Part shown: positions 1,519 through 63,799 of the stretch, one piece after another | Position numbering within the stretch: position 1 is the first letter of the stretch | How the letters are laid out: the number at the start of each line of letters is the position of its first letter | Assembly: GCF_017643475.1 (NCBI RefSeq) | Contig: NZ_JAEPNI010000001.1 | Span: forward strand, 620,001 to 684,000 | Direction: 5' to 3' | DNA: 64,000 nt | DNA from: Maricaulis sp. | GTDB lineage: Bacteria > Pseudomonadota > Alphaproteobacteria > Caulobacterales > Maricaulaceae | Made by a program: the position numbers and the translations under genes | Notes under the pieces: model-generated | Seen by the model: the letters and a program-made list of their open reading frames with translations, nothing else | What the model was told of the DNA's origin: nothing | The model's database searches: none

Positions 1519-1650
1519 GCTGTTAACGATCACATGGCGGCGTTTTCTTGAGACCGCGTCGCAAGCGCAAACAAACAAGGTGTTGCAGACGAAATCTCCT
1601 TGACCGGAAAGGGAGGCTGGTTGTGACTATGCCCTTCGAATGGATACGCA

Positions 1651-1668
1651 ATCAGCCGTCTGGCTGAT
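1651..1668. repeat. Inverted repeat just upstream of the Kor operon
   Basis: Perfect 7-base arms ATCAGCC (1651-1657) and GGCTGAT (1662-1668) around GTCT, ending 24 bases before the TTG start of the first Kor-operon gene. It could be an operator or a 5'-leader hairpin; no regulator is implied by the sequence alone. Confidence 0.4.
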
Positions 1669-1692
1669 GTTCTCAGCGCCGGGGAGGGGATC

Positions 1693-3489
1693 TTGAAGCC
1701 GACCGATGTGAAGGATCCGGACTATTTCCATAAAGTCGTGGACTGTCAGTGGGCCTGCCCCGCGCATACGCCGGTGCCGGAATACATCCGGCTGATCGCC
1801 CAGGGCAAATTTACCGAAGCCTATCTGGTCAATCGTCGATCGAATGTCTTTCCCGGCATTCTCGGCCGCGTCTGCGACCGCCCGTGCGAGCCGGCCTGTC
1901 GCCGCGGTCGTGTCGAGGAAGAGCCGGTCGCCATCTGTCGCCTCAAGCGTGTGGCTGCGGACCATCGCGACGAGGTTGCGCACCTGGTGCCGCAAAGGCC
2001 CGAGCGAACCAATGGCAAGAAGATTGCGCTTGTGGGCGCTGGCCCAGCCTCGCTGACCGTGGCCAATGATCTGGCTCCCCTCGGCTATGAGTGCACGGTG
2101 TTTGAGGCGATGCACCGCCCGGGTGGTCTGATGATCTCCAACATCCCCGCCTTCCGTCTGCCGGAAGAAGTGCTGGATGAGGAGATCGGCTATATCGAGA
2201 AGATGGGTGTCGAGATCAAGCTCAACCACCGTGTCGAGAGCCTCAAGGCGCTCAAGGACGAGGGTTATGACGCCATCTTCATCGGTTCCGGTGCGCCCAA
2301 GGGCAAGGACCTGAAGATCGAGGGTCGCGATGAGGCGGAAGCCAATATCCATATCGGTATCGAATGGCTGGAAAACGTCGCTTTCGAGCACACCAAGGCT
2401 ATCGGCAAGAAAGTTCTGATCATCGGTGTTGGCAATACGGCGATGGATTGCTGCCGGACCTCGCTGCGTCTGGGCGCGGATGATGTGAAGGTCATGGCGC
2501 GCAAGCCGCGCGAATTCTTCAAGGCCTCGCCATGGGAGCTTGAGGATGCCGAGGAGGAGAATGTCGAGATCCTCGTCAATCACTCCCCGAAGCGTTTTGT
2601 CGTCGAGAACGGCAAGCTGACCGGTATGGAGTTCGAGCTGATGGAATACCAGCTTGATGAAAGCGGTCGTATCACTGACACCAAGGTCGCCGGTCGCAAG
2701 ATCATCCCTTGTGACGATGTCATTCTGGCCATCGGCCAGGAGAACGCCTTCCCCTGGATCGAGCGGGATGCGGGCATCGAGTTCGACAAGTGGGGCGTAC
2801 CGATCGTTGACGAGACCACGCATGAGTCCACGGTCAAGGGCGTGTTCTTTGGCGGTGACAGTGCCTTTGGTCCCAAGAACATCATCTGGGCCGTCGAACA
2901 TGGTCACCAGGCTGCAATCTCGATCCATAAACACTGCCAGGGCGAAAGTGTCGCCGAACGCATGCCACGCGGGCTCAATCTCAACTCTGCCAAGATGGGC
3001 GTGAACGAGTGGATGTACTCCAACGCCTTCGACGCGTCGGATCGCCGGGAGATGCCGCTTGTGGAACTCAAACAGCGCCTGGCCGATCGTCGCAAGGAAG
3101 TCGAGGTCGGCTTTACCGACGAGCAGATCATCACCGAGGTTCAGCGTTGTCTGAACTGTGACGTCCAGACGGTGTTCGAGGCGCCGCTCTGCAAGGAGTG
3201 TGATGCCTGTCTGGATATCTGTCCGGTGGATTGCCTGTCGATCGTCCCGGCCGCGGAAGAGGCGGATCTGCGCCAGACGCTGCGTGTTCCGGCGAACAAT
3301 ACCGAACAGGCCGTCTATGTCTCCGAGCCACTTAGGGATACGGGGCGGGTCATGGTGAAGGACGAAGACCTGTGCTTGCACTGTGGCCTGTGTGCGGAAC
3401 GTTGTCCGACCTCTGCCTGGGACATGCAGGACGCTGATATTTTCATTCCTCATGCCATCGAGGAAGCCGAGGGAGTCGCTGCAGAATGA
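1693..3489 (+). CDS. GltD-like FAD/NAD(P) oxidoreductase with C-terminal two-cluster ferredoxin domain (Kor partner)
   Basis: This 598-residue flavoprotein probably moves electrons between ferredoxin-type clusters and NAD(P). An N-terminal Fe-S helical domain shows CQWACPAHTP and GRVCDRPCEPACRRG. It is followed by a first dinucleotide fold at about residue 109 (KIALVGAGPASLTVA) and a second at about 238 (VLIIGVGNTAMD), as in the glutamate synthase small subunit. The C-terminus adds two 4Fe-4S motifs: CKECDACLDICPVDC near residue 505 and CLHCGLCAERCP near 560. The start is TTG at 1693 behind GGGGAGGGG. Its stop overlaps the next start (ATGA), so it is translated with KorA and KorB. No GltB glutamate synthase is nearby, so an assignment to ammonia assimilation is unlikely. 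Confidence 0.85.
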   Translation: MKPTDVKDPDYFHKVVDCQWACPAHTPVPEYIRLIAQGKFTEAYLVNRRSNVFPGILGRVCDRPCEPACRRGRVEEEPVAICRLKRVAADHRDEVAHLVPQRPERTNGKKIALVGAGPASLTVANDLAPLGYECTVFEAMHRPGGLMISNIPAFRLPEEVLDEEIGYIEKMGVEIKLNHRVESLKALKDEGYDAIFIGSGAPKGKDLKIEGRDEAEANIHIGIEWLENVAFEHTKAIGKKVLIIGVGNTAMDCCRTSLRLGADDVKVMARKPREFFKASPWELEDAEEENVEILVNHSPKRFVVENGKLTGMEFELMEYQLDESGRITDTKVAGRKIIPCDDVILAIGQENAFPWIERDAGIEFDKWGVPIVDETTHESTVKGVFFGGDSAFGPKNIIWAVEHGHQAAISIHKHCQGESVAERMPRGLNLNSAKMGVNEWMYSNAFDASDRREMPLVELKQRLADRRKEVEVGFTDEQIITEVQRCLNCDVQTVFEAPLCKECDACLDICPVDCLSIVPAAEEADLRQTLRVPANNTEQAVYVSEPLRDTGRVMVKDEDLCLHCGLCAERCPTSAWDMQDADIFIPHAIEEAEGVAAE

Positions 3490-5315
3490 ATGCTGTTGCC
3501 AGGATCCAGCCCGACGTGCGGGTCAATGATTTCGTTCTCAAGATCGCCAATGTGAACGGAACCGGTTCTGCCTCGGCCAATGGTCTGCTGATGAAGGCCA
3601 TTTTCCGCATGGGTGTGCCGGTGGTCGGCAAGAATCTCTTCCCGTCCAACATCCAGGGCCTGCCGACCTGGTACGAGATCCGTTTGACCAAGGATGGTTA
3701 CCGGTCCCGTGCGGGTACGACAGAATTCATGGTCGCCATGAATGCGGAGACCTATGCCCAGGACCTCGCCGAGGTCTCTCCGGGCGGTGTGATCTTGTAT
3801 GACGACACCTGGCCGCGTCCGGAGATGCACGCCCGCGAGGACATCACCGCGATCGGGGTTCCGCTGGCGCGCATGTGCAATGCCGAGTTCGACAATGCCC
3901 GCACCCGGGTGCTGATGAAGAATATGGCCTATGTTGGCGCAGTCGCTGCGCTGACGGGCATTGATGTTGAGATCATCCGCAGCATGGTCGAGGAGATGTT
4001 CGGCACCAAGGCGCATCTGATCGAAGCCAATATGAAGGCCATTCAGCTGGGTCTGGACTATATCCGCGAGAAACATGCAGAGCCGCTGAATCTGCGGGTT
4101 GAGCCGATGGACAAGACGGCTGGCCACATCATGATCGATGGCAATACAGCGGCCGGTCTCGGTGCGGTTTATGCCGGGGCGACATTCGGTGCCTGGTATC
4201 CGATTACCCCGTCGACCTCGCTGATGGATGGCTACAAGGCCTTCTGTGAGAAGTTCCGGATCGACAAGGAAACCGGAGAGAAGAATTTCTGCATTATCCA
4301 GGCCGAAGACGAACTGGCCTCGATCGGCATGGCTGTAGGTGCAGGCTGGAATGGCGCGCGCGCTTTCACCCCGACATCCGGCCCGGGAATTTCGCTGATG
4401 AGCGAGTTCATCGGCTTTGCCTATTATGCTGAAATCCCGGTGGTGTTGTTTGACGTCCAGCGCGCAGGGCCCTCAACGGGCCTGCCGACGCGGACCCAGC
4501 AGTGCGATCTGACCATGGCGGCCTATGCCAGCCACGGAGATACCAAGCATATCTGTGTCTATCCCGCCGACCCGCGTGAGTGTTTCGAGATGTCGGTCCA
4601 GTCGTTTGACCTGGCTGAGCGTTTCCAGGCACCGGTTTTCTTCATGACCGACCTGGATATCGGTATGAATGACTGGATGATTGAGGAGCTGGAATGGGAT
4701 GACAGCTACGTACCCGATCGCGGCAAGGTGCTGAGTGCCAAGGAACTTGAGGCGATGGAAAAATTCTATCGCTATGAAGATCGGGATGGTGATGCGGTGC
4801 CCTATCGAACCTTGCCTGGTACGCATCCCAAGGGCGCTTACTTCACCCGTGGTTCCGGCCATAACTGGAAAGGCGGATACACCGAGGATGGCGTTGAGTA
4901 CCAGGAAGTGCTGGACCGGCTGACCCGCAAGTGGGAAAGCGCCGCTGACACAGTTCCCGGGCCAGTGATTGTCGACGCGGGCAAGCCGACTCGCCGGGCG
5001 ATCATTTCGATCGGTGGTTGTGACGGAGCCGTGCGAGAGGCGCTGGACCGGTTCAATGAAGCTGGCTTGCCGCTGAATTACCTGCGAGTGCGCGGATTCC
5101 CGTTTAATTCGGAAATCGAAGCCTTCATGGCAGAGCATGACGAGATCTTCGTGGTCGAGCAAAACCGCGACGCCCAGTTGCGCAGCCTGCTGATCAACGA
5201 AACTTCGGTCGACAAGACCAAGCTCGTCCCGATCCTGGATTATGCCGGGATGCCCGCCAATCCGGAGTTCATCTACGACGCCATCATGGCGCATTGCGAG
5301 ACGGAGGAGGCGTAG
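3486..5315 (+). CDS. korA: 2-oxoacid:ferredoxin oxidoreductase, fused gamma-alpha subunit (KorA-like)
   Basis: The 609-residue protein combines a gamma domain (about residues 15-190, with NGTGSASANGLLMKAIFRMG) and a pyrimidine-binding alpha domain from about residue 215 (TAAGLGAVYAGATFGAWYPITPST in two parts). This gamma-alpha fusion is the layout of 2-oxoglutarate:ferredoxin oxidoreductases in aerobic bacteria. With KorB it would decarboxylate a 2-oxoacid, probably 2-oxoglutarate, to an acyl-CoA and reduce ferredoxin. Substrate choice is inferred from family architecture, not proven here. The start overlaps the upstream flavoprotein stop by 4 bases (ATGA), which indicates a tightly coupled operon. 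Confidence 0.87.
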   Translation: MNAVARIQPDVRVNDFVLKIANVNGTGSASANGLLMKAIFRMGVPVVGKNLFPSNIQGLPTWYEIRLTKDGYRSRAGTTEFMVAMNAETYAQDLAEVSPGGVILYDDTWPRPEMHAREDITAIGVPLARMCNAEFDNARTRVLMKNMAYVGAVAALTGIDVEIIRSMVEEMFGTKAHLIEANMKAIQLGLDYIREKHAEPLNLRVEPMDKTAGHIMIDGNTAAGLGAVYAGATFGAWYPITPSTSLMDGYKAFCEKFRIDKETGEKNFCIIQAEDELASIGMAVGAGWNGARAFTPTSGPGISLMSEFIGFAYYAEIPVVLFDVQRAGPSTGLPTRTQQCDLTMAAYASHGDTKHICVYPADPRECFEMSVQSFDLAERFQAPVFFMTDLDIGMNDWMIEELEWDDSYVPDRGKVLSAKELEAMEKFYRYEDRDGDAVPYRTLPGTHPKGAYFTRGSGHNWKGGYTEDGVEYQEVLDRLTRKWESAADTVPGPVIVDAGKPTRRAIISIGGCDGAVREALDRFNEAGLPLNYLRVRGFPFNSEIEAFMAEHDEIFVVEQNRDAQLRSLLINETSVDKTKLVPILDYAGMPANPEFIYDAIMAHCETEEA

Positions 5316-53129: not shown

Positions 53130-53585
53130 ATGCAGAACCAGAACGAGACCGAAAAGCCGGTCGTGGAAATGCCGGACAAGGACGCCGGTTTCTCCCTGAC
53201 CGAGATCATGATCTCGGTTTTCATCATTGGCCTTTTGGGCACGATCGTCGTGATCAATGTCATGCCGCTGGGCGAACAGGCTTCGGTCCAGAAGGCCCGC
53301 GCGGATATCGCGACACTTGAACAGGCGCTGGATGCCTATCGGCTGGACATGCGTCGTTATCCCACTGTCGAGGAAGGTCTCGACGCGCTGATCAACGCGC
53401 CGCGTGATGCGGACAATTACCGCGAGGGTGGATATATCCGCCGCCTGCCGGACGATCCGTGGGGCAACCCCTACCAATATGTCTATCCGGGCGAAAACGG
53501 TGTCTTCGACGTCTACTCCCTTGGTGCCGACGGCCGTGAGGGTGGCGAGGACAATGACGCGGACATCGGTAACTGGCAGGGTTGA
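53130..53585 (+). CDS. gspG: Major pseudopilin GspG
   Basis: This 151-residue prepilin-like protein is cleaved after Gly20: DAG/FSLTEIMISV, with Glu at mature position 5. The C-terminal part holds RYPTVEEGLDALINAP, PDDPWGNPYQYVYPG and the acidic calcium-binding end GREGGEDNDADIGNW. An AAGGAGG ribosome site precedes the ATG. The cleavage would need the prepilin peptidase encoded at 59045. The stop overlaps gspH (TGATG). Confidence 0.96.
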   Translation: MQNQNETEKPVVEMPDKDAGFSLTEIMISVFIIGLLGTIVVINVMPLGEQASVQKARADIATLEQALDAYRLDMRRYPTVEEGLDALINAPRDADNYREGGYIRRLPDDPWGNPYQYVYPGENGVFDVYSLGADGREGGEDNDADIGNWQG

Positions 53586-54094
53586 TGTCCGGGCGCGCCC
53601 ATAACGAAGCCGGTGTCTCGCTGATCGAGACGCTCGTGGCGGTGGCGATTATCGGCATCGTGGCGACGGCTGTTGTCCTGTCCATCCAACCTGGAAGCGA
53701 CCCGCTGGATGAGGAGGCCGATCGCTTGCTCGCACGCCTGGTGTTTGCCGAACAGGACGCCATCAGTACCGGCCAGCCGGTGGGCGTGGTCATCGAGGGT
53801 TTCGGTGCGGGCTACAGTTTTCATCGCTATGTCGATCAGCGCTGGTGGCCGGTGCGCGATGTGGATGCGCTGGGTGCACACATCCTGGAGACCGGTTTCC
53901 GTCTGCGTGTCGATGAAGCCATCCTCGCCGCAGCCATCGTTGGCGAGGGTGAGGAGCGCCCGGTGATTCCGGCGTTCTGGTTTGACCCGGCGGGCATGAC
54001 CGAACCCTTCCGCCTGCGTCTTGAAGACGCCCGTACCGTGCTGGAGCTCGTCTGGACCGGTGATGCCGATACGCGCTGGGAGGTCATCGACTAG
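53585..54094 (+). CDS. gspH: Minor pseudopilin GspH
   Basis: This 169-residue protein has a prepilin site EAG/VSLIETLVAVAIIG with Glu at position 5. The rest is a beta-rich globular domain (FVEGEERPVIPAF-type strands near the C-terminus). ATG 53585 shares its A with the gspG stop; a TTG three bases earlier is less likely. Position and size identify GspH. Confidence 0.85.
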   Translation: MSGRAHNEAGVSLIETLVAVAIIGIVATAVVLSIQPGSDPLDEEADRLLARLVFAEQDAISTGQPVGVVIEGFGAGYSFHRYVDQRWWPVRDVDALGAHILETGFRLRVDEAILAAAIVGEGEERPVIPAFWFDPAGMTEPFRLRLEDARTVLELVWTGDADTRWEVID

Positions 54095-54097
54095 CTC

Positions 54098-54472
54098 ATG
54101 CGCACCTCGACTACAGATCAATCCGGTTTCTCCCTGATCGAAATGATGGCGGCGCTCGCTGTTGTGGCGCTGGCAGGGATTGCCGTTGTGCAGATGTTGC
54201 AGACGACGACGCAGAACACCGCGGCGCTGGAAGAGCGTTCTCTCGCCATGCTGGCAGCGGAGAATATCCTCAACGAACAACTCCTTATTGCCGAGGGTCG
54301 CGGCAGCCGTTCGGGATCCTACAGCCTGGCCGGGGTGGAGTATGACTGGCGCCTCGCCATCAATCGGACGACTGACACGGCGCTGATGCAATATGTCGTG
54401 ACCATTCATCCGGACCGCCAGGACCGGACACTGGCGCGGATCGAGACCTTCCGGCGCAGGAGTGGCACATGA
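54098..54472 (+). CDS. gspI: Minor pseudopilin GspI
   Basis: This 124-residue protein has the cleavage site QSG/FSLIEMMAALAVVALAG and the GspI-type AAENILNEQLLIAEG and GVEYDWRLAI segments. It starts 3 bases after gspH and its stop overlaps gspJ (ATGA). It belongs to the pseudopilus tip complex with GspJ and GspK. Confidence 0.88.
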   Translation: MRTSTTDQSGFSLIEMMAALAVVALAGIAVVQMLQTTTQNTAALEERSLAMLAAENILNEQLLIAEGRGSRSGSYSLAGVEYDWRLAINRTTDTALMQYVVTIHPDRQDRTLARIETFRRRSGT

Positions 54473-55116
54473 CGTCTGCCCAGTCCGAAGCCGGTTTCTC
54501 CCTGGTCGAGATCCTTGTCGCGACGGCGGTGTTCGCTGTTGTTGGTGTGATCTCGGTGGCGCTGTTGTCGACGACGATCACGGCCCAGGAGGTCAATGAT
54601 AACGCCCTGGCGCGCATCAACGCGCTTGATCGTGCGCGTGTATTGCTCCGGGAAGATATCGGTCAGGTCGTCCAGCGCAGCGCCCGGGCCGAGGACGGAG
54701 CAGTGCGTCCGGCCCTGTTCGCAGGGGATGCCAATGGCCTAGCAGACCGTTTTGCGGAGGACGGCGATGAGGTCATTCTCTCGCTCACACGTCGCGGCCG
54801 TTCCAATCCGGGGCTGGTGCGGGCGCGCAGCTCGCTCATCCATGTCCAGTATGTATTGCGCGACGGGCAGTTGATCCGCCGGGTATCTGAACACCCCGAC
54901 ATCACGCCGCTGACCCGCTGGGCGGAACAGGTGATCTTGCAGGGCGCGGACGAGGTCGAACTGGGCTTCATGGTCGGATCGGTCTGGCAGTCACGACTGG
55001 CCACACGCCCCGGCCAGGAAGGCGCCAGCCTGCCACGCGCCGTGCGCCTGCGGCTCACGACGACACAATGGGGGGCGCTTGAGTTCCTCGCGCTGACGTC
55101 GGAGGTGCGGCTGTGA
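54469..55116 (+). CDS. gspJ: Minor pseudopilin GspJ
   Basis: This 215-residue protein has the cleavage site EAG/FSLVEILVATAVFAVVG. RVLLREDIGQVVQRSAR and GDEVILSLTRRGRSNPG are typical of GspJ. The overlap with gspI (ATGA) and gspK (GTGA) shows tight translational coupling. Confidence 0.9.
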   Translation: MTSAQSEAGFSLVEILVATAVFAVVGVISVALLSTTITAQEVNDNALARINALDRARVLLREDIGQVVQRSARAEDGAVRPALFAGDANGLADRFAEDGDEVILSLTRRGRSNPGLVRARSSLIHVQYVLRDGQLIRRVSEHPDITPLTRWAEQVILQGADEVELGFMVGSVWQSRLATRPGQEGASLPRAVRLRLTTTQWGALEFLALTSEVRL

Positions 55117-56102
55117 GGCTATCTCGCCGGGATAAGTCAGAATGCGGCGCGTCCCTGGTGAGCGCGCTGTTGCTGGTTGCCGTAATGAGTTCGCTTGCGA
55201 TGGCACTGGTCACGGACCTGCGTTTCTCCATGCGCCGCTCCGCCAATCTGGAAGTGCGGGACCAGGCCTATTGGTACGCCATGGGCGCGCGCGAATTTGC
55301 CGAGATCTCGATCGAGCGTGCCATGCAGGCCCCGGATGACATGCTGCGTCCCGATGCAGACTGGCTGAGCGGCCAGCGGGTCTTCCCGATCAATGATGGC
55401 CAGCTTGTCGGCCGGGTGCGCGATGCCAGCAATTGCTTCAATCTCAACAGCCTGGTGAGCATCGAGGCTAACGGTCTCCTGGTTGGAGATCCGCTGCAGC
55501 AGCGTCGTTTCGATGCGCTCCTGCAGGCCATCGGCCTGCCGGTTCAGCAATCCGCCACGATCACTGCCGAGCTTGTGGATTGGCTGGACAGCGATCAGCG
55601 TCCGGTCATCAGCGGGGCGGAGGATGACAGTTATGCTCGCGCCGGTCGGCACTACCGCACGGGCAATACATTATTGGCCGAGCGTGAGGAATTGTTGGCA
55701 CTGGCCAGCATGACGCCACGTCTCTACAGCGAGATCGCACCATTTGTCTGCGCCCACCCGGTGGTCGATAACGTGCCGCTGAACATCAATACGATGCAGT
55801 TTGACCAGGCGCCCTTGCTGGTGGCGATGTTCGAGGGTGAGCTTTCCCGCACGACAGCGGACGCCCTCTTGATCGAACGCCCCCAGACCGGGTTTGACGC
55901 CATGCAGGTCTTTTGGGAGCTGGATGCGTTCGAGACGATGGAAATCGAGTCCCACCACCGCCAGGCCGTCGGTCGGACGAGCGAGTATTTTCAGATTGAG
56001 GTCGACGTGCTTTATGCCGGTGCGCGCTTCAGGCTGAGCGAAATGGTCGAGTGGCGAGGGGGCATTCGCCGCCTTACCCAGCGATACGGAAGTTTTTCAT
56101 GA
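55113..56102 (+). CDS. gspK: Minor pseudopilin GspK
   Basis: This 329-residue protein starts with GTG overlapping the gspJ stop. Cleavage is predicted after CG in ECG/ASLVSALLLVAVMSSLAM. As usual for GspK, Glu at mature position 5 is absent. CFNLNSLV and LVDWLDSDQRPVISGAEDD are conserved blocks of the large globular domain. It caps the pseudopilus. Confidence 0.92.
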   Translation: MRLSRRDKSECGASLVSALLLVAVMSSLAMALVTDLRFSMRRSANLEVRDQAYWYAMGAREFAEISIERAMQAPDDMLRPDADWLSGQRVFPINDGQLVGRVRDASNCFNLNSLVSIEANGLLVGDPLQQRRFDALLQAIGLPVQQSATITAELVDWLDSDQRPVISGAEDDSYARAGRHYRTGNTLLAEREELLALASMTPRLYSEIAPFVCAHPVVDNVPLNINTMQFDQAPLLVAMFEGELSRTTADALLIERPQTGFDAMQVFWELDAFETMEIESHHRQAVGRTSEYFQIEVDVLYAGARFRLSEMVEWRGGIRRLTQRYGSFS

Positions 56103-57319
56103 GCCAGGATCTCATTCTCCTGATCCATCCCGATGGCAGCGGACGCTGGTCGATCATCGACCGCGCCAGCGGTCAGCGCGGCGCGTCGGGGGATTTCGGC
56201 GCTGACAGTACGCCGACAGGAGTGCCCGAAGCGGACATCGACCGCACAATCTGCCTCCTGCCGGCCGAGCGGATCTTTGCCAGCCGGATCACCTTGCCGG
56301 CGCGCAGCGAAGCTGAAGCGCGCCAGGCAGCACCTTTCATGATCGAGGATGAACTGGCCGTGGAACTGGATGAGACCAGCGTCAGCATTGGCCCGCGAGA
56401 CGAGACGGGTGAGCGCTGGGTTTATGCCGTAGACCGGGACTATGCTGACAGCCTGCTGGATCGTCTGGACGGCGCTGTTGTGCGTCCCGTTCACATCCTG
56501 CCGGATGCCCAGGCGTTGGCTGATCCGGAAGCTGCACTCAGCCTGGTCGATCGCCGGGGCGATGTTCTGTTCTGGTATGCCGACGACATCGCTGGCGATG
56601 GCAGCCGTGCCGGCGGCGCGGTCTCGCCGGGCCTTTTCCCGCATCTCGCAGCCGAGATTGTCGGTGCAATTGGTGAGGGACAGGTCTCGGTCTCGCCTTC
56701 TCTTGGCCTGATGGGTGCACGCTTTTCCAATCGCGCTGCCGGCGAAGCGGACATGGCGGCGTCGGGTCTGTCAGACGAGATGCTCAAGCGACTGCCGGCC
56801 TTGTTCGGAGAGCGCTGGCGGTCGGCCTTCGACTGGCTCGATGTTCTGCGGCCGCTGCGCACAAGCGCCATCCTGGCCGCCGCCGCGCTGGTCGGATATT
56901 GTGCTCTGCTGCTGGGTGAGGCTTTCTATTTTCGGTATCAGGCCGACCGGTTCGACGGCGCTGCAATTGCCGAATACCGCTTTGTGAACCCCGACTTCAC
57001 CCGTGCCACCATACCCGCCGAGGTAGACCGGATGGTCCGCCGGGACCTGCGAGAGCTGGGCGGCGGTGACAGTTCGGCCTTCCTGCAGCTCAGCGCTGCC
57101 CTGACCGAACTGGTGGCGGATAATGAGCGAGTGCGCATCGACAGTCTTCGTTTTGACCAGTCGCGGGAAGAATTGCGGGTCTCGGCCCTGTTCACGGAAT
57201 TTGCCGATTTCGATGCCCTGACAGCGCGGGCCGGACAGATGGGGCTGGAACTGGAGGACGGCGGTGTGCGTGAAGCTGAAACCGGTCTCCAGGGCGAGTT
57301 TACGGTGAGGGTGCGATGA
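56099..57319 (+). CDS. gspL: Type II secretion platform protein GspL
   Basis: The 406-residue protein has an actin-like cytoplasmic domain (LPAERIFASRITLPARSEAE, with PFMIEDELA) that docks GspE. One membrane helix follows near residue 257 (ILAAAALVGYCALLLGEAFY), then a periplasmic domain. The ATG at 56099 overlaps the gspK stop (ATGA); longer upstream readings are unsupported. The stop overlaps gspM. Confidence 0.9.
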   Translation: MSQDLILLIHPDGSGRWSIIDRASGQRGASGDFGADSTPTGVPEADIDRTICLLPAERIFASRITLPARSEAEARQAAPFMIEDELAVELDETSVSIGPRDETGERWVYAVDRDYADSLLDRLDGAVVRPVHILPDAQALADPEAALSLVDRRGDVLFWYADDIAGDGSRAGGAVSPGLFPHLAAEIVGAIGEGQVSVSPSLGLMGARFSNRAAGEADMAASGLSDEMLKRLPALFGERWRSAFDWLDVLRPLRTSAILAAAALVGYCALLLGEAFYFRYQADRFDGAAIAEYRFVNPDFTRATIPAEVDRMVRRDLRELGGGDSSAFLQLSAALTELVADNERVRIDSLRFDQSREELRVSALFTEFADFDALTARAGQMGLELEDGGVREAETGLQGEFTVRVR

Positions 57320-57816
57320 ATCCGGTTGTCCAGATGATCCGCACCTATTGGGATGGTCGAACGCCCCGCGAACAGGTCCTCTATGGTGTGATGGCGGTGT
57401 TGATGGCTGTGCTGTTACTGACGGTCGCCGTCATCCAGCCACTGCAATCCTTCCATGCGCGCTCCCAGACCGATTACGCCGCATCGATGCGGCTGTACCG
57501 CTCGATCCAGCAGGATGCTCAGACCCTGCGGGAGCTTCAGGCCGGCGCGCAAACGCAGGCCGGTAGCCAGCAATCCATCCGTTCCATCGTTGGGTCGCTG
57601 GCCCTGGGCGAAGGCATCGCCATTGCGCGCATGATCCCGGGTGACGATGGTTCGCTGGCCGTGACTATCGAGCGCGCGGATACCGGCGCGGTGATGCGCT
57701 GGCTGGTCAATCTGGAACAGCGGTACGGCATCCGTGTGGTTTCCTCGACCCTGGATCGGCACGAGACCGGCATGACCCAGGCCTCTGTGGTGTTGCGGCG
57801 CGGGGGAGGTCTGTGA
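57316..57816 (+). CDS. gspM: Type II secretion protein GspM
   Basis: This 166-residue bitopic protein has a short cytoplasmic tail, one helix (VLYGVMAVLMAVLLLTVAVI, about residues 23-42) and a periplasmic ferredoxin-like domain (YGIRVVSSTLDRHETGMTQA). It normally pairs with GspL. The ATG overlaps the gspL stop. Confidence 0.88.
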   Translation: MNPVVQMIRTYWDGRTPREQVLYGVMAVLMAVLLLTVAVIQPLQSFHARSQTDYAASMRLYRSIQQDAQTLRELQAGAQTQAGSQQSIRSIVGSLALGEGIAIARMIPGDDGSLAVTIERADTGAVMRWLVNLEQRYGIRVVSSTLDRHETGMTQASVVLRRGGGL

Positions 57817-58547
57817 TGGCGCGGCGTCTGGGTGTGCTGGCGGGGCTGGTGCTGGTCTGGCTGATCGTGCTCTTGCCGCTCAAGGCGGTGATGATGCTGG
57901 CTGGCGGAGCCGGGGCGTTCGGCTATCCGGATGTCTATGGCAGCGTCTGGGATGGCCGTATCTACGGCCTTCGTATGGCGGGAATGCCGGTGCGCGAGAT
58001 CGAGATGTCAGCGGATCCGCTGCCCCTGTTTGTAGGTCGGCTGGCCGCGCGCTGGCGGGTGTCCGATGACAGTGCGCGAGGCAGTGGCCATGTCGTCCTG
58101 GGTCGCGAGACGATCGAGATCCGTGACATGTCGCTGCTGGTTTCCATCGATCGTCTGGACCTGCAGACCCTGCCCGGGCTCGACCGCTCGCAGATGATCG
58201 ATGTCGATGTGGACAGCCTGTCCATGCGTGCAGGGCAATGCGAAGCGGCGCAGGGACGTGTGCGCACTGCCGCACTGGAGCGATTCGCCGCGAGTTACGG
58301 TTTTGAGGGTCCGTCCATGCTGGGCATCCTGTCGTGTGAAAACGGCGCCCTGGTGTTGTCGCTGGATGGTGCTGCGGCGGATCTGGAAGTGACAGGCACG
58401 GTGCGCATGACCGGTCAGGACTATGCCTGGGACATGGAGCTGCGCACCGGGCGTCCTGAACTTGCCGAAGTGCTGGCCCTTGCCGGCATGACCCGGAACG
58501 GGGATATCTGGATTTATCAGGGGAGTGAGCGTCTTGCCATTGAATAA
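57816..58547 (+). CDS. gspN: Type II secretion protein GspN
   Basis: This 243-residue protein has an N-terminal helix (LAGLVLVWLIVLLPLKAVMM) and a beta-rich periplasmic part starting YGSVWDGRIYGLRMAG, characteristic of GspN. I choose ATG 57816, behind GGGGGAGG and sharing its A with the gspM stop. GspN is an accessory T2SS component missing from many systems. Confidence 0.85.
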   Translation: MARRLGVLAGLVLVWLIVLLPLKAVMMLAGGAGAFGYPDVYGSVWDGRIYGLRMAGMPVREIEMSADPLPLFVGRLAARWRVSDDSARGSGHVVLGRETIEIRDMSLLVSIDRLDLQTLPGLDRSQMIDVDVDSLSMRAGQCEAAQGRVRTAALERFAASYGFEGPSMLGILSCENGALVLSLDGAAADLEVTGTVRMTGQDYAWDMELRTGRPELAEVLALAGMTRNGDIWIYQGSERLAIE

Positions 58548-59034
58548 GGTCCAGCCTGTCAGCGTTCTTGTCCTGGCCCTGGCGGTGTCAGCCTGTGCAT
58601 CGACCGAAGGCGCTCTGCCCGTGTCCGGATCGGGCGGAATGCGCTCGGCTGAAGTGACGGAGCCGGCGACACCGGCCAATGAACTGGCGCCCCAGATCCT
58701 GCAGCCCGGTGAATGCGGTACCTTTTTCTGGACCGCGGATTCCGAGCATCGCTTTGTCGCCTTTGAGAATGAAACGCGCGGTTATGCGCAGCTTTTCGTC
58801 AATGGCCAGGCAGAGAGCTTTTCAGGTCAGCGTCTTGACGGGCTGCATGTGGCCGGCGATCACTATCAACGTGACTTTGCTGATCCGGCACGCGATCTGG
58901 ATGTCGAGATTGAGGGTCGGATAGGCGATCCGTTGCCCACCGGTCAGCGGATCGAACGCGTGGTCATGCGCATCCAGAGGACTGATGGAGCGCTCCTTGT
59001 TGTACCGCTGATCGGGCATTACGCCTGTCGCTAG
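58525..59034 (+). CDS. Small lipoprotein at the end of the T2SS operon, unknown function
   Basis: A roughly 169-residue protein overlaps the gspN end by 23 bases. A lipoprotein signal (VSVLVLALAVSAC) places the modified Cys near residue 24. The mature region has GECGTFFWTADSEHRFVAF and a C-terminal PLIGHYACR, and the three mature Cys may form a disulfide. The start is uncertain: GTG 58525 abuts the AGGGGA site, TTG 58534 is better spaced. No family recognised. Because no pilotin is otherwise annotated, a pilotin-like role is possible. Confidence 0.65.
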   Translation: MSVLPLNKVQPVSVLVLALAVSACASTEGALPVSGSGGMRSAEVTEPATPANELAPQILQPGECGTFFWTADSEHRFVAFENETRGYAQLFVNGQAESFSGQRLDGLHVAGDHYQRDFADPARDLDVEIEGRIGDPLPTGQRIERVVMRIQRTDGALLVVPLIGHYACR

Positions 59035-59044
59035 ACGGGCGGCC

Positions 59045-59524
59045 CTAGAAATAGAGGCCGGCTTGCGGCCAATAGGCCTTAACCAGCCAGATAAGGACGA
59101 TGCCGAAGGCCAGCCAGGGACCAAAGGCCAGCATGGTTGTGCCGCTGGGCTTCTGGCCGCGGATCACGGACATCAACAGGACAAAGAGCAGGGCTGCGAA
59201 ACTGGCGACCAGCAGGATGAAGGGCAGTGCCATCGCTCCGCACCATGCACCGCCGGCCGCAAGCAGTTTGGCGTCTCCGCGCCCCAGCCCGTCGCGACCG
59301 CGCAGGTGTTTGTAGGCGATCTCCAGTCCTACAAGGCCCAGATATCCCAGCGCTGCGCCTATAAGTGCGGGTAGAAGACGATCAAAAACAAGGATGTTGG
59401 CGATCAGGCCGGCGGGAATCAGTGGCAGGGTGATGGCGTCCGGCAGGCGATAGGTCAGGGCATCAATGTGTGCCAGAACTGCCAGACAGATCAATAAAAC
59501 AGCGCTCAGGAGAAGGATGAGCAT
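59045..59524 (-). CDS. gspO: Short A24-family prepilin peptidase
   Basis: This 159-residue membrane protease keeps the two catalytic aspartates: one in AHIDALTYRLPDAI near residue 21 and one in GRGDAKLLAAGG near residue 84. It has about six helices. It lacks the N-terminal cysteine-rich methylase domain of standard GspO/PilD, so it resembles CpaA/TadV-type enzymes. Convergent with the T2SS lipoprotein gene and divergent from phnC, it probably processes the five pseudopilins here. Confidence 0.85.
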   Translation of the reverse strand: MLILLLSAVLLICLAVLAHIDALTYRLPDAITLPLIPAGLIANILVFDRLLPALIGAALGYLGLVGLEIAYKHLRGRDGLGRGDAKLLAAGGAWCGAMALPFILLVASFAALLFVLLMSVIRGQKPSGTTMLAFGPWLAFGIVLIWLVKAYWPQAGLYF

Positions 59525-59533
59525 ACAAAGCCC

Positions 59534-59551
59534 TTGTCATTGCTACATCAT
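59534..59551 (+). promoter_or_regulatory. Candidate Pho box upstream of phnC
   Basis: TTGTCAT-TGCT-ACATCAT has the 7-4-7 layout. The first heptamer matches CTGTCAT at 6 of 7 and the second at 4 of 7. It ends 43 bases before the phnC start, in the 70-base gap to the divergent peptidase gene, an appropriate position for an activator site. Confidence 0.45.
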
Positions 59552-59594: not shown

Positions 59595-60395
59595 ATGCCC
59601 GATCGGGAGACAGCTCTCAAGGCAGAAAATCTGCGGATGACCTTCGGCGAGACGAAGGCTCTGGATGATGTATCGCTCACAATTGATCCGGGCGAGATGG
59701 TCGCACTGATCGGTCCGTCAGGATCCGGCAAGTCGACCTTGCTGCGTGTGGCCGCGGGTCTGCAGGTCGCGGACCGCAATTCCGGCCCGGTCCACGTGCT
59801 CGGCCAGCGCATGCAGGAAAAGGGCAAGCTGTCCTCTTCCGTGCGTCAGTATCGCGCGCGGCTCGGCTTTATTTTCCAGCAATTCAATCTGGTTGGTCGC
59901 CTGACCCTGTTCCGCAACGTCCTGCTGGGCGCGCTGGGGCAGATTTCCCTGTGGCGCGGCGCGCTGGGGATTTTCCCCAACGAGACCAAGCAGAAGGCGA
60001 TGGATGCGCTAGAGCGTGTCGGTATCGCTGATTTTGCCGGTCGCCGCGCGTCCAACCTGTCCGGTGGCCAGCAACAGCGCGGCGCCATCGCCCGGGGCCT
60101 GGTCCAGGGCGCGGAAATGCTGTTTGCCGACGAACCGATTGCCTCGCTGGACCCGGTTTCCGCCCGCAAGGTGATGGAGCTGCTGGCCGAACTGAATGAG
60201 CGGGATGGCCTGACGGTTGTCGTGACGCTGCACCAGATCGGTTATGCACGTGAGTTCTGTGATCGCATCGTCGCCCTCAATGCCGGCCAGATCGTCTATG
60301 ACGGCCCGCGTGACGCGCTCACCCAGGAAAAGCTCATCGAGATCTACGGTACCGAATACGAGGCTGCCTTCTACGGCGCCGAGGAGGACGCGTGA
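59595..60395 (+). CDS. phnC: Phosphonate/phosphite-type ABC transporter ATP-binding protein PhnC
   Basis: This 266-residue ATPase has Walker A GPSGSGKST near residue 39, the signature NLSGGQQQRGAIARGL near residue 153, and Walker B EMLFADEP near residue 175. The start ATG 59595 follows GGGGGAGGA. Its stop overlaps the phnDE start (TGATG), and GAGGAGG lies in its last codons. No C-P lyase genes are nearby, so the imported compound could be phosphonate, phosphite or phosphate. Confidence 0.92.
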   Translation: MPDRETALKAENLRMTFGETKALDDVSLTIDPGEMVALIGPSGSGKSTLLRVAAGLQVADRNSGPVHVLGQRMQEKGKLSSSVRQYRARLGFIFQQFNLVGRLTLFRNVLLGALGQISLWRGALGIFPNETKQKAMDALERVGIADFAGRRASNLSGGQQQRGAIARGLVQGAEMLFADEPIASLDPVSARKVMELLAELNERDGLTVVVTLHQIGYAREFCDRIVALNAGQIVYDGPRDALTQEKLIEIYGTEYEAAFYGAEEDA

Positions 60396-62395
60396 TGCGT
60401 GTCAATTCTATCCTTTTCAGCCTGCTTGCTCTGGTCACACTCCTGCTGGCGGCTTGTTCCGAAGTCGTAACCGACACACCGGAAACGCGCGCGGAGCTGC
60501 CGGGCGAACGGCGCACAATCAATTTCGGCATCATTGCCACCGAATCCACCAGCACGCGTGAGACCAACTGGCGTCCCTTCATCGAGGCGATGTCGGAATG
60601 GACCGGTTATGACGTGCAGCCCTACTATGCGTCCGACTATGCCGGCATGATCCAGGCGATGCGATATGACAGCATCCAGGTCGGCTGGTTTTCCAACTTC
60701 TCCGGCCTGCAGGCCGTGCGCCTCGCTGATGGCGAAGTGTTCGCTAAATCGACCTATCCGGATGGCGGTGAGGGGTATTACTCCATCTTGCTGGTGCCGG
60801 TAGACAGTCCGATCCAGTCGGTTGAGGACATCCTGACCTGTGACGGGTCGATTGATTTCGGCCTGGGCGATCCCAACTCCACGTCGGGCTATCTGGTGCC
60901 GTCGGCCTTCATCTTTGCGCCGCGTGGTATCGACCCGGCCGAGTGTTTCGGTTCCGTGCGCAATGCCAGCCACGAGGCCAATGCTCTTGCTGTTGCCAAT
61001 GAGCTGGTCGACGTTGCTGCCAATAACTCCACCAACATGCTGGTCCTGCGCCGCTCCCGTCCGGACGTGGCAGCCCAGCTGCGCGAGATCTGGCGTTCGC
61101 CGATGATCCAGACCGATCCGATCATCTGGCGGTCTGACCTGGATGATGAAGTCAAGCAGCGCCTGCAATACTTCTTCATGAATTACGGTCGCATGGGCAC
61201 ACCGGAAGAGGTCCAGGCCGCGCGCGATGTACTGACGCCACTGCTCTTTGGTACATTCCTGCCGTCGTCCAATGCGCACCTCGATCCCATCGTACAGCTG
61301 GAAATCGTGCGGGACCTGACTGCCGCGCGTAATGATCCCGACCTGACCCCGGCTGAGCGCGCGGAACGTGTCGCCGAGCTGGAAGAACGCTTGGCCCAGG
61401 TCGAGGCCGGCAATTCCGGTCTCGTCAGTCTTGCTTCCAGCGTTGAAGGTGCGGATACGGGCGAGCCGGGCGATGCTGAAACGCAAACCTCGCTGGTGAA
61501 CGCCCAGTCCGTACTGGCCTTCGGTGGGACCCTGGTGCTGCTGACCGTGCTGTTGTTCGCGACTGCGCCGCGCGGACCCGGACCGCGCACGCCGCTGAGC
61601 GAACGCCTGGCAAATGTCGGCATTGTTGTGGGCATTGTCGTGGTTCTGGTGTGGAGCTTTGACTCCTCGGACATGGACCGTTCCTACCTGCTGGTGGAAA
61701 ACGCCAATGACATGGGCGAGTTCATCGCCGGTTTCTTCCCGACGGATATCACCGACGCCGCGTCGCGGTCGCACTATTGGGACGAGTTGAGCGCGGGCAT
61801 TGCCGAGGCCATGCCGCAGATGATCGTCACCGTCCAGATCGCGATCTGGGGTACGTTTATCTCTGTGATCGCCGCCATTCCGTTCGGTCTTCTGAGTGCG
61901 CGTAATGTGGCGCCTCTGTGGGTCGTGCAGCCGGTGCGCCGCCTGATGGACGTCTTCCGTTCAATCAATGAGCTGATCATCGCGCTGGTCTTCATCGCCG
62001 CTGTAGGACTGGGGCCTCTGGCCGGTGTGATGGCGCTGGCGGTGCACACCACCGGTGTCCTGGCCAAGCTCTTCTCTGAAGCGGTGGAAGCGATCGATAA
62101 CGGGCCTGTTGAAGGGATCCGGGCCACGGGCGCGCGGCCTCTGCACGAGGTGATCTGGGCGATCATTCCCCAGGTGGCACCCCTGTGGACGTCTTTTGGT
62201 CTTTACCGTTTCGAGTCCAACGCCCGCTCGGCGACGGTTCTCGGTCTCATCGGTGCCGGTGGTATCGGCCAGATCCTGTTCGAGGCGGTGCGTGCCTTTG
62301 ACTATCAGCGTACGGCAGCGATCGTCCTGGTCATTGTCATCGCCGTCAGCCTGATCGATGTCATGTCCCAGATGTTGCGCAAGCGCCTGGTCTGA
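60395..62395 (+). CDS. phnDE: Fused PhnD substrate-binding lipoprotein and PhnE permease
   Basis: One continuous 666-residue frame joins two normally separate subunits. Residues 1-20 form a lipoprotein signal ending LLLAAC. Residues about 40-300 are a PhnD domain: NFGIIATESTS, YYASDYAGMIQAMR, GDPNSTSGYLVPSAF and HEANALAVANELVDVAANN keep the ligand-pocket Tyr, Ser/Thr, His and Asp. A charged linker (about 300-350) leads to helices near 370-387. The PhnE permease follows (about 470-666), with the EAVEAIDNGPVEGIRATGA coupling region. The binding protein is thus tethered both by lipid and by its permease. Most PhnD/PhnE are separate genes. Confidence 0.9.
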   Translation: MRVNSILFSLLALVTLLLAACSEVVTDTPETRAELPGERRTINFGIIATESTSTRETNWRPFIEAMSEWTGYDVQPYYASDYAGMIQAMRYDSIQVGWFSNFSGLQAVRLADGEVFAKSTYPDGGEGYYSILLVPVDSPIQSVEDILTCDGSIDFGLGDPNSTSGYLVPSAFIFAPRGIDPAECFGSVRNASHEANALAVANELVDVAANNSTNMLVLRRSRPDVAAQLREIWRSPMIQTDPIIWRSDLDDEVKQRLQYFFMNYGRMGTPEEVQAARDVLTPLLFGTFLPSSNAHLDPIVQLEIVRDLTAARNDPDLTPAERAERVAELEERLAQVEAGNSGLVSLASSVEGADTGEPGDAETQTSLVNAQSVLAFGGTLVLLTVLLFATAPRGPGPRTPLSERLANVGIVVGIVVVLVWSFDSSDMDRSYLLVENANDMGEFIAGFFPTDITDAASRSHYWDELSAGIAEAMPQMIVTVQIAIWGTFISVIAAIPFGLLSARNVAPLWVVQPVRRLMDVFRSINELIIALVFIAAVGLGPLAGVMALAVHTTGVLAKLFSEAVEAIDNGPVEGIRATGARPLHEVIWAIIPQVAPLWTSFGLYRFESNARSATVLGLIGAGGIGQILFEAVRAFDYQRTAAIVLVIVIAVSLIDVMSQMLRKRLV

Positions 62396-62417
62396 CCGGG
62401 GCTCACAGCTAGACAAA

Positions 62418-62447
62418 AAACAGGCCGGACATTGTCCGGCCTGTTTT
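62418..62447. terminator. Bidirectional rho-independent terminator
   Basis: The perfect 13-base arms AAACAGGCCGGAC (62418-62430) and GTCCGGCCTGTTT (62434-62446) have an A-run on the left and a T-run on the right. It sits between the convergent phnDE and glycosyltransferase genes and can serve both. Confidence 0.9.
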
Positions 62448-62469: not shown

Positions 62470-63627
62470 CTAGCTATCGATCGACTTCTGGCCGCGCAGG
62501 CGTTTCCAGAACCGCCGGCGTTCCGGCTTGGGATGCGGTTTCAGATTGTCCAGGAAGTCCAGTGCGCACTGGGTCCAGGAGTGTTTTTCCGCGTGCGCCC
62601 GCGGCGCAGCGCGGTCGATTTCCAGACAGTCCATGCAGGCCTGCCGCAGGTCTTCATTGATGAAGCCGCCACCGGAGCCGGGGATGATGTCTTTGGGGCC
62701 GTGAGCCGGGAAGGCCGCGACCGGGGTGCCACAGGCCATCGCTTCCAGATTCACCAGGCCGAAAGTGTCAGTCCAGCTCGGGAAGACAAAGACATCCGCA
62801 TCGGCAAAGTGGCGGGCCAGCTCGTCACCGAATTTCGGGCCGGTGAAGACAGCGTCGGGATATTTCGCCTTCAGCTCTTCCATCTGGGGGCCGTCACCGA
62901 CGATGACCTTGGTGCCCGGCAGGTCGGTTTCCAGGAAGGTCTCGATATTCTTCTCAACCGCAACCCGGCCGACATTGACCCAGACCGGGCGCTCGAGGCC
63001 GGCAAAGACATCCTCGCCATTCATCATGCGCTTGGCCGGGTTGAAGAGCTCGATGTCCACGCCCCGCGCCCACGGCGTCAGATTGTTGAAACCGCGCTTG
63101 GTCAGATCATCGCGCATGGACGGCGTCGTCACCATCATGCGGCCACCGGCATTGTGGAACCAGCGCATGAAGGCATAACCGGCAGACAGCGGGATGAAGC
63201 CGAAGCGCGCGTTCACATATTCGGGGAATTTGGTGTGATAGCTGGTGGTGAAGGGCAGTTTCCACTTCACGCAGATGCGGCGCGCCGCCAGGCCGAGTGG
63301 GCCCTCGGTCGCGATGTGGATGGCTTCCGGCTCGAACTCGGTGAAGCGGCGGGCGATGTCCTTGCGGGCGCCCATGGCCAGCTGGATCTCCGGATAAGTC
63401 GGCAGTGGCATGGTCTTGTAACCCAGCCCAGGATGGATCACCTCGACTTCGCGACCCATCTCGCGCAGCTCGGCGACGGTGCGGGAAAGGGTGCGAACCA
63501 CACCATTCATCTGCGGTTCCCAGGCATCGGTCACCAGCATGATACGCTGCGGGCGTTCATTGCTGTCTTCGGCGTCCGGGCCGTTGGTGGTGACGATATT
63601 ACTCGCGAGGTCAGCGGTTTTGCTCAT
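62470..63627 (-). CDS. GT4-family glycosyltransferase (Agt/SqdX-like)
   Basis: This 385-residue cytoplasmic GT-B enzyme has MLVTDAWEPQMNGVVRTL near residue 30 and IHIATEGPLGLAARR near 105. TSYHTKFPEYVNARFG and the C-terminal FVFPSWTDTFGLVNLEAMAC supply donor-binding Glu residues. The N-terminal segments resemble lipid glycosyltransferases such as Agrobacterium Agt and SqdX. A role in making glycolipids is plausible, for example when phosphate is short, but other GT4 roles are not excluded. The ATG at 63627 follows GAGGAAATTG; a TTG three bases earlier is less likely. Confidence 0.82.
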   Translation of the reverse strand: MSKTADLASNIVTTNGPDAEDSNERPQRIMLVTDAWEPQMNGVVRTLSRTVAELREMGREVEVIHPGLGYKTMPLPTYPEIQLAMGARKDIARRFTEFEPEAIHIATEGPLGLAARRICVKWKLPFTTSYHTKFPEYVNARFGFIPLSAGYAFMRWFHNAGGRMMVTTPSMRDDLTKRGFNNLTPWARGVDIELFNPAKRMMNGEDVFAGLERPVWVNVGRVAVEKNIETFLETDLPGTKVIVGDGPQMEELKAKYPDAVFTGPKFGDELARHFADADVFVFPSWTDTFGLVNLEAMACGTPVAAFPAHGPKDIIPGSGGGFINEDLRQACMDCLEIDRAAPRAHAEKHSWTQCALDFLDNLKPHPKPERRRFWKRLRGQKSIDS

Positions 63628-63799
63628 CAATTTCCTCTGCTTTTCAGCCGCCCGAGGCGGTGAAAATCCTTACTGTCTGCATGCGTCTTAGCGCATTCGT
63701 GCACAATCGCGAAGTGCAACAGCACACTGGGCTTGCGAAGCGGCGTTTGCGGGAGCAATGTCCGCTCCGAAATTTTGGATCCAATAGAAGGTTTGTGCC

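Follow-up and report, generated by a model that had tools for sequence, protein, structure and literature searches.

A PhnD-PhnE fusion protein in Maricaulis and the architecture of PhnT-type importers across its order

A 64,000-nucleotide stretch of a Maricaulis sp. genome (NCBI RefSeq assembly GCF_017643475.1, contig NZ_JAEPNI010000001.1, positions 620,001 to 684,000; hereafter the window) carries a locus in which the binding protein and the permease of a phosphonate-family ATP-binding cassette (ABC) importer, PhnD and PhnE, are encoded as one chain, PhnDE, directly behind the ATPase gene phnC. We propose, as the probable reading of its sequence, that phnC-phnDE specifies a PhnT-type importer (TC 3.A.1.9) in which binding domains tethered to the permease are followed by an added return helix, TM0, and which operates in phosphate-starvation uptake. 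Some ABC importers tether the binding domain, and many use an excess of free protein. Here, we describe the fused chain, its distribution and origins within the order, a second type of fusion that joins PhnD to the ATPase, and the evidence on the ligand.

The fused chain and its added helix

The phnDE frame is open throughout from an ATG at 60395 to the stop codon at 62393-62395 of the forward strand and encodes 666 amino acids. The A of its ATG is shared with the TGA stop of phnC, and an additional in-frame GTG precedes it at 60392. An earlier note on this DNA, made from the sequence alone, had described one continuous frame running from a lipobox through PhnD and a charged linker to PhnE; that description holds, and the linker proves to be acidic, with five Asp/Glu and no Lys/Arg in residues 346-371. 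The features of the locus are as follows.

59595-60395, + strand: phnC, ATP-binding subunit, 266 residues (TIGR02315, 282 bits, cut-off 266.1)
60395-62395, + strand: phnDE, substrate-binding lipoprotein and permease on one chain, 666 residues (frame, domain and structure matches)
60395-60457, + strand: predicted signal sequence and lipobox, residues 1-21, acceptor Cys21 (Cys21 invariance, lipobox rule)
60503-61429, + strand: PhnD domain, residues 37-345 (PF12974; PDB 3n5l, E 8.1e-79; PDB 3p7i, E 2e-73)
61430-61507, + strand: acidic, fast-changing linker, residues 346-371 (composition, alignment, and the ratio of nonsynonymous to synonymous substitution, dN/dS)
61511-61567, + strand: TM0, candidate added hydrophobic helix, residues 373-391 (best 19-mer Kyte-Doolittle mean 2.29)
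61568-61606, + strand: short Arg-rich loop PRGPGPRTPLSER, three Lys/Arg and one Asp/Glu, presumably cytoplasmic
61607-62392, + strand: PhnE permease, residues 405-666 (TIGR01097, 285.6 bits, cut-off 216.7)

Family models recognize both halves of the chain. Pfam places Phosphonate-bd (PF12974) on residues 44-295 (E 3.4e-66; 223.5 bits against a cut-off of 27) and BPD_transp_1 on residues 494-664 (E 5.2e-18). Among NCBIfam models, that for PhnE is passed with the score listed above and the broader PhnD subfamily TIGR01098 with 222 against 112 bits, while the PhnD equivalog TIGR03431 is narrowly missed (252.6 against 261.1 bits). The PhnD domain aligns along its length with the PhnD structures PDB 3n5l and 3p7i, the latter from E. 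coli. ATPase, permease and binding protein at the window locus all conform to the sequence definition of the PhnT family, and a search of the window's own genome returned this one PhnD-family match only. Cys21 is invariant in 14 of 14 aligned Maricaulis proteins and fits a lipobox rule; the binding domain is probably lipidated at this residue in Maricaulis.

The fused topology poses a constraint. In split systems PhnE begins shortly before its own first helix, and its N-terminus would be cytoplasmic; an external PhnD joined to a cytoplasmic PhnE start would therefore need one more membrane crossing. TM0 is a candidate for this crossing. A stretch of this kind is present in all 42 fused loci (35 counting identical copies once), with a best 19-mer Kyte-Doolittle mean of 1.6-2.9, and the loop between it and the first PhnE helix holds two to five Lys/Arg and none to two acids. 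By the positive-inside rule, such a loop is placed in the cytoplasm. With 1.6 as the threshold, and with 17 unscorable split loci dropped, the score is reached by one of 82 scorable split loci (L069), and there ahead of the probable PhnE start. In eight Maricaulis pairs, dN/dS over TM0 and its loop is approximately 0.08-0.35 (calculated ratios), and the linker preceding TM0 evolves faster. By these ratios, TM0 and the loop are under purifying selection in Maricaulis.

The acidic linker, which is poorly conserved and probably flexible, also leaves room for a different fate of the chain, namely cleavage after synthesis that would free the lipoprotein PhnD from PhnE. We regard such processing as very unlikely: the linker columns of the alignment show no conserved motif, and a released PhnE would retain TM0 for no obvious reason.

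Distribution, origins and a second fusion

To define the extent of the fusion, the DNA of PhnD/PhnE loci was read in genomes from a sample of 299 of the window's order, which we take to be Caulobacterales. Families are coded f1 (that of the window), f3 (assumed to be Caulobacteraceae) and f4. The counts of fused and split loci rest on DNA reading only, and tabulated frame lengths were not accepted as proof of fusion. Loci L071 and L063 have equal frame lengths for both halves, yet stops lie between their genes, and they are not fusions; L057, L107 and comparable long frames did not qualify either.

Further single-chain PhnD-PhnE proteins, a search for which the earlier note had proposed, turned out to be the rule in f1, where all 23 genomes read are fused: 11 in the window's genus, its own included, and 4, 2, 5 and 1 in four other genera. 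In f3 the fusion is confined to genus g18, with 5 of 26 genomes fused against 0 of 18 in other f3 genera, and in f4 PhnD and PhnE are apart in 15 of 15 genomes read. G103, of the window's genus, and other f1 genomes gave no match at all in the search of the 299 genomes. Left out of these counts are 11 further f3 genomes judged split from differing match frames only, L137 and L157, which lack a complete PhnD-PhnE pair, L133 and L158, which lack both genes, L094, which lacks PhnD, and genome duplicates; f1 genome G227, whose matches are weak (best E 3.5e-41), was left unread, as were weak matches in f2, f4 and f5. At one locus, L047, a lipoprotein PhnD stands alone, with no PhnE. A further 14 fused Maricaulis loci come from named contigs, which also include one split locus; seven of the 14 differ over the last 600 residues from the fused proteins counted above, and several same-genus genomes encode proteins identical over that span to those of named Maricaulis contigs. 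The named isolates Maricaulis maris DSM 4734, M. parjimensis DSM 16078 and M. alexandrii LZ-16-1 carry the fusion.

Outside the order, all 51 loci read from class and phylum samples are split; these were the best-scoring loci plus some with suspicious frames, rather than a random draw. A plasmid collection gave 1046 records with a match, and the three that were opened are all split, the unannotated one by virtue of stops between the halves. The samples comprise Pseudomonadota and one Nostoc plasmid. Drafts and metagenome bins account for many of the genomes, and the earlier note had listed a stop or frameshift between the domains in the raw reads as refuting the fusion. The joined frame is intact in the 11 same-genus genomes, in 12 from other f1 genera and in the three named isolates, which leaves a sequencing or assembly artefact with a negligible probability.

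The fused proteins do not form one lineage. A quick tree of PhnD plus PhnE (93 rows, 518 columns, linker and signal excluded) places the 17 fused f1 rows in one group and the five fused f3.g18 rows in another, both nested among split relatives. Support by the Shimodaira-Hasegawa-like approximate likelihood ratio test (SH-aLRT) is 91 for the f1 group, which is below the level starred in that tree, and 100 for the f3.g18 group. Forcing one fused group costs 224.6 log-likelihood units, and a single origin is rejected by the approximately unbiased (AU) test (p-AU 5.6e-48), performed after the tree was seen. A tree of PhnD only, with 71 rows, agrees. By these phylogenies, the PhnDE fusion arose twice within the order.

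In two of the five fused f3.g18 genomes, a single run of genes comprises phnC, a lipoprotein phnD and the fused phnDE, in that order:

L079, 717-1721: lipoprotein PhnD; 1816-3654: fused PhnDE
L078, 3483-4484, - strand: lipoprotein PhnD; 1565-3499, - strand: fused PhnDE

This arrangement is probably a tandem duplication with one copy fused, that is, a duplication intermediate; the PhnD-only tree leaves the relation of the two copies unresolved.

In f4, PhnD is joined to a different partner. The PhnC frame continues without a stop through one hydrophobic stretch into PhnD, and PhnE is a gene of its own, in 15 of 15 loci read, including two in which the locus is truncated within PhnC:

L090, 331-2247: PhnC-PhnD chain
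L088, L091-L093, L110, L111, L136, L159-L165: the 14 further f4 loci with a PhnC-PhnD chain

The PhnC part scores 273.6 bits (L090) and 281.7 bits (L092) with TIGR02315, above the cut-off, and the PhnD part of L090 scores 212 bits with PF12974. A cytoplasmic ATPase and an outside binding domain would thus be one chain. We know of no importer in which ATPase and binding protein form a single chain, and none of the PhnC-PhnD type was described in the literature searched, as judged from titles and the beginnings of abstracts. The PhnC-PhnD chain is the more unusual of the two fusions and, if true, represents an ABC importer architecture uniting a cytoplasmic ATPase with an extracytoplasmic receptor. 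The earlier note, correct on the joined frame and domains of PhnDE, had missed this f4 fusion along with TM0, the breadth of the distribution and the second origin.

Lipoboxes complete the pattern. Split f3 PhnDs have one in 35 of 40 cases by rule and in four more by eye, the remaining protein being truncated, and outside the order the rule finds none at 51 loci. Of the fused proteins in the sampled genomes, all 11 from Maricaulis have a lipobox, against 1/12 from other f1 genera (a doubtful case) and 0/5 from f3.g18. Four f3.g26 proteins with a visible LAGC escape the rule, which does match L023 of f1.g7, whose sisters have sites resembling those of signal peptidase I. Outside Maricaulis, it is as if fusion had made the lipobox unnecessary. 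PhnD looks to be tethered throughout the order by alternative means, with tethering, rather than the PhnDE fusion itself, as the conserved trait; this pattern is a comparison across loci, not a selection test.

Split phnD and phnE are often in the same frame and close together, so that fusion by neutral loss of the intervening stop codon, with no functional consequence, would be mechanistically easy. We consider this account improbable. An extra helix had to be acquired in both origins, every one of the 42 fused loci has it, and in Maricaulis it is subject to purifying selection; the f4 fusion has other partners and likewise would tether PhnD; and the lipoprotein PhnD beside phnDE in two f3.g18 genomes suggests a fused duplicate rather than mere stop loss.

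A broader conjecture, which we advance tentatively and hold to be possible but not the likelier case, is that lasting selection in this order has favored a membrane-bound or transporter-bound PhnD, met by at least four inventions (the lipid anchor, PhnDE twice, each time with a new helix, and PhnC-PhnD) and possibly caused by the stalk. Passages of one report state that stalk cross-bands prevent protein exchange with the cell body and that the stalk inner membrane of C. crescentus has nearly no transporters (PMC5590869). Given such barriers and so transporter-poor a membrane, free PhnD might be lost there, wasted in the isolated periplasm of the stalk. The same passages place PstA-GFP in the stalk of Brevundimonas subvibrioides (PMC5590869), which weakens the idea for that genus.

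Ligand and gene neighbourhood

The ligand is most likely phosphate, or else a different small phosphorus compound that bears no positively charged tail, taken up in phosphate starvation; for this we rely on binding-site residues, enzyme content and neighbouring genes. The phosphonate substrate implied by the earlier note finds weak support. According to passages of a study of the family, Glu177 and Asp205 of PhnD accommodate the amine of 2-aminoethylphosphonate (PMC12718374). All 90 loci of the order carry Thr, Val or Ile at the Glu177 position, which is Glu at 45 of the 51 loci elsewhere. In the window protein the two positions are Thr213 and Asp241, and the Glu177-Asp205 pair that marks a PhnD specific for 2-aminoethylphosphonate is thus incomplete. 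PhnJ of the carbon-phosphorus (C-P) lyase was over its cut-off in none of 69 f1 genomes, with one weak fragment below it and nothing in the window's own genome, whereas the E. coli control was detected. PhnW, PhnX and PhnA were each over cut-off in 0 of 16 genomes of the genus, in a search whose control genomes likewise gave 0 of 14 and which thus lacked a positive control.

The genes around phnC-phnDE point in the same direction. A PstS-like gene, a Porin_O_P gene or both lie just downstream of phnDE on the same strand in 9 of 11 same-genus genomes and, in other f1 genera, in 5/5 (g7), 1/1 (g16), 2/4 (g2) and 2/2 (g3) genomes; a PstS-like gene is downstream in 18 of 26 f3.g18 genomes. By similarity to the same queries, neither was found at any of 26 outside-order loci with more than 1200 bases downstream. 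In seven of nine Maricaulis genomes compared, the only match to TIGR02136 (PstS family) lies beside phnDE, apart from pstC/pstA; G093 and the window's species have it next to pstC/pstA instead. All these matches score below the model cut-off; Pfam PF12849 is passed by each of three such proteins examined. Upstream of phnC, 9 of 11 same-genus genomes have sites resembling CTGTCACAAAAGTGTCAT that lie 61-63 bases ahead of the start codon and agree with at least 11 of 14 bases of the Pho-box consensus. The window has a weaker counterpart at the same place:

59534-59551, + strand: Pho-box-like site 5' of phnC (TTGTCATTGCTACATCAT), 10 of 14 consensus bases

The principal competitor to phosphate-starvation uptake is an importer of phosphonate or phosphite (2-aminoethylphosphonate, methylphosphonate or phosphite) that feeds an enzyme outside those searched. 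The sequence family is that of PhnCDE, and the residues at the positions of Tyr47, Ser127, Thr128 and His157 are kept in nearly all rows. Maricaulis retains Asp205. In marine Synechococcus, PhnD1 has a higher affinity for phosphite than for phosphate (PMC10284923). We judge such an importer to be the less likely case, though the strongest of the alternatives, as the enzyme searches, the replacement of Glu177 throughout the order and the PstS-like and Porin_O_P neighbours all argue against it. Phosphate would not be foreign to the family: according to PMC6469041, E. coli PhnCDE takes up phosphate with a Km of 19 µM and M. smegmatis PhnDCE is said to carry it.

Several observations nonetheless weigh against a phosphate-starvation importer with a return helix. 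Retention of Asp205 in Maricaulis is one of them. The window's species and G093 have no PstS-like or porin neighbour of phnDE; the Pho-box-like site of the window is equalled in 11% of shuffles and is weak alone, and g2 and g7 have no good site 5' of phnC. PhnY/PhnZ, PtxD and HtxA were outside the enzyme searches, so that use of methylphosphonate or phosphite is possible. The evidence for TM0 is hydropathy; AlphaFold models of 14 Maricaulis proteins have a mean predicted local distance difference test score (pLDDT) of 38 and a predicted template modelling score (pTM) of 0.21, and nothing was drawn from them. Finally, C. crescentus reportedly has no high-affinity phosphate uptake besides Pst, despite its phosphonate transporters (PMC11208175), which speaks against phosphate in f3 if f3 is the family of C. 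crescentus, as assumed above.

Other features of the surroundings are recorded here. At L036 (7226-9538) and most Maricaulis loci read, a Porin_O_P gene, a PstS-like gene or both follow phnDE, and both are absent after position 62395 of the window. There, an inverted repeat with A/T runs on either side (approximately 62417-62446), by its form probably a two-way terminator, separates phnDE from a convergent gene for a GT4-type glycosyltransferase (62470-63630, - strand). Homologues of the latter occur at 12 of the 13 longer Maricaulis loci, as well as beside the phn loci of some f3 genomes, and it might be a phosphate-starvation lipid gene. On the other side, adjoining phnC, positions 53582-59524 contain a prepilin peptidase gene and genes for type II secretion, of which Pfam identifies GspN and visual inspection the others; in the longer Maricaulis loci, gspN and gspL-like homologues lie upstream of phnC in 11 of 13 and the peptidase in 12 of 13. 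Within this region, 58525-59034 encodes a lipoprotein-like protein of 169 residues with no Pfam match, with homologues in the same place in 9 of the 13.

Proposed mechanism and relation to known importers

We propose that the cell exports the binding domain of PhnDE and that, in Maricaulis, Cys21 probably receives a lipid. The acidic linker and TM0 would return the chain to the cytoplasm, so that PhnE could begin on the inner face of the membrane as it usually does. An importer assembled from a pair each of PhnDE and PhnC chains would have exactly two tethered domains, as OpuA does, in place of a surplus of unattached PhnD. Where the binding protein is free, cells tend to make more of it than of its translocator, according to the abstract of PMC9045158. 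Tethering would raise the local concentration of the domain and fix the ratio at 1:1, and may favor rapid hand-over at low copy number while giving up the reservoir of free binding protein. Pho-controlled uptake of phosphate or a small phosphorus compound would fit best.

Within one order, one importer exists in several states: apparently lipid-anchored, permease-joined (twice) and ATPase-joined, while the sampled outsiders look free. These states offer natural matched pairs for the effects of tethering on affinity, rate and stoichiometry. Additionally, naming these proteins phosphonate transporters by family alone is risky, given that no C-P lyase was seen and that the gene is often near phosphate-uptake genes.

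E. coli PhnCDE is the family reference: Maricaulis PhnC and PhnE pass the family cut-offs, and the PhnD domain aligns with both PhnD structures. In contrast to E. coli, the Maricaulis PhnD bears a lipobox and is joined to PhnE via an added helix rather than being free in the periplasm, Glu177 is replaced by Thr, and no C-P lyase was found. M. smegmatis PhnDCE, Sinorhizobium PhoCDET and picocyanobacterial PhnD1CE have separate binding proteins, unlike PhnDE. These PhnDCE-type systems resemble it in that they carry, or are thought to carry, phosphate, according to PMC6469041 and PMC10284923. GpxB, a glycerol phosphate binding protein of the PhnT family, is alike in having its amine-contacting residues replaced (PMC12718374); it has Arg/Thr at these positions, while the PhnDs of the order have Thr (Val, Ile) and, in Maricaulis, Asp.

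The closest architectural parallels are OpuA and GlnPQ. In these importers the ATPase is a separate protein. Their binding domain and permease share one chain, so that each importer has at least two tethered domains. At the phnC-phnDE locus, too, the binding domain is covalently joined to the permease and the ATPase is separate. The earlier note had known of no PhnDE fusion, and no PhnD-permease fusion appeared in the literature searched, which was judged by titles and the beginnings of abstracts, with passages of a few papers, most subscription journals lying outside its scope. OpuA and GlnPQ belong to different families; here a lipobox-bearing, phosphonate-type binding domain is joined to its permease in a Gram-negative cell and is followed by an added, putative return helix. 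The fusion of a binding domain to a permease is already known from OpuA and GlnPQ, and what appears to be new is PhnD as the partner.

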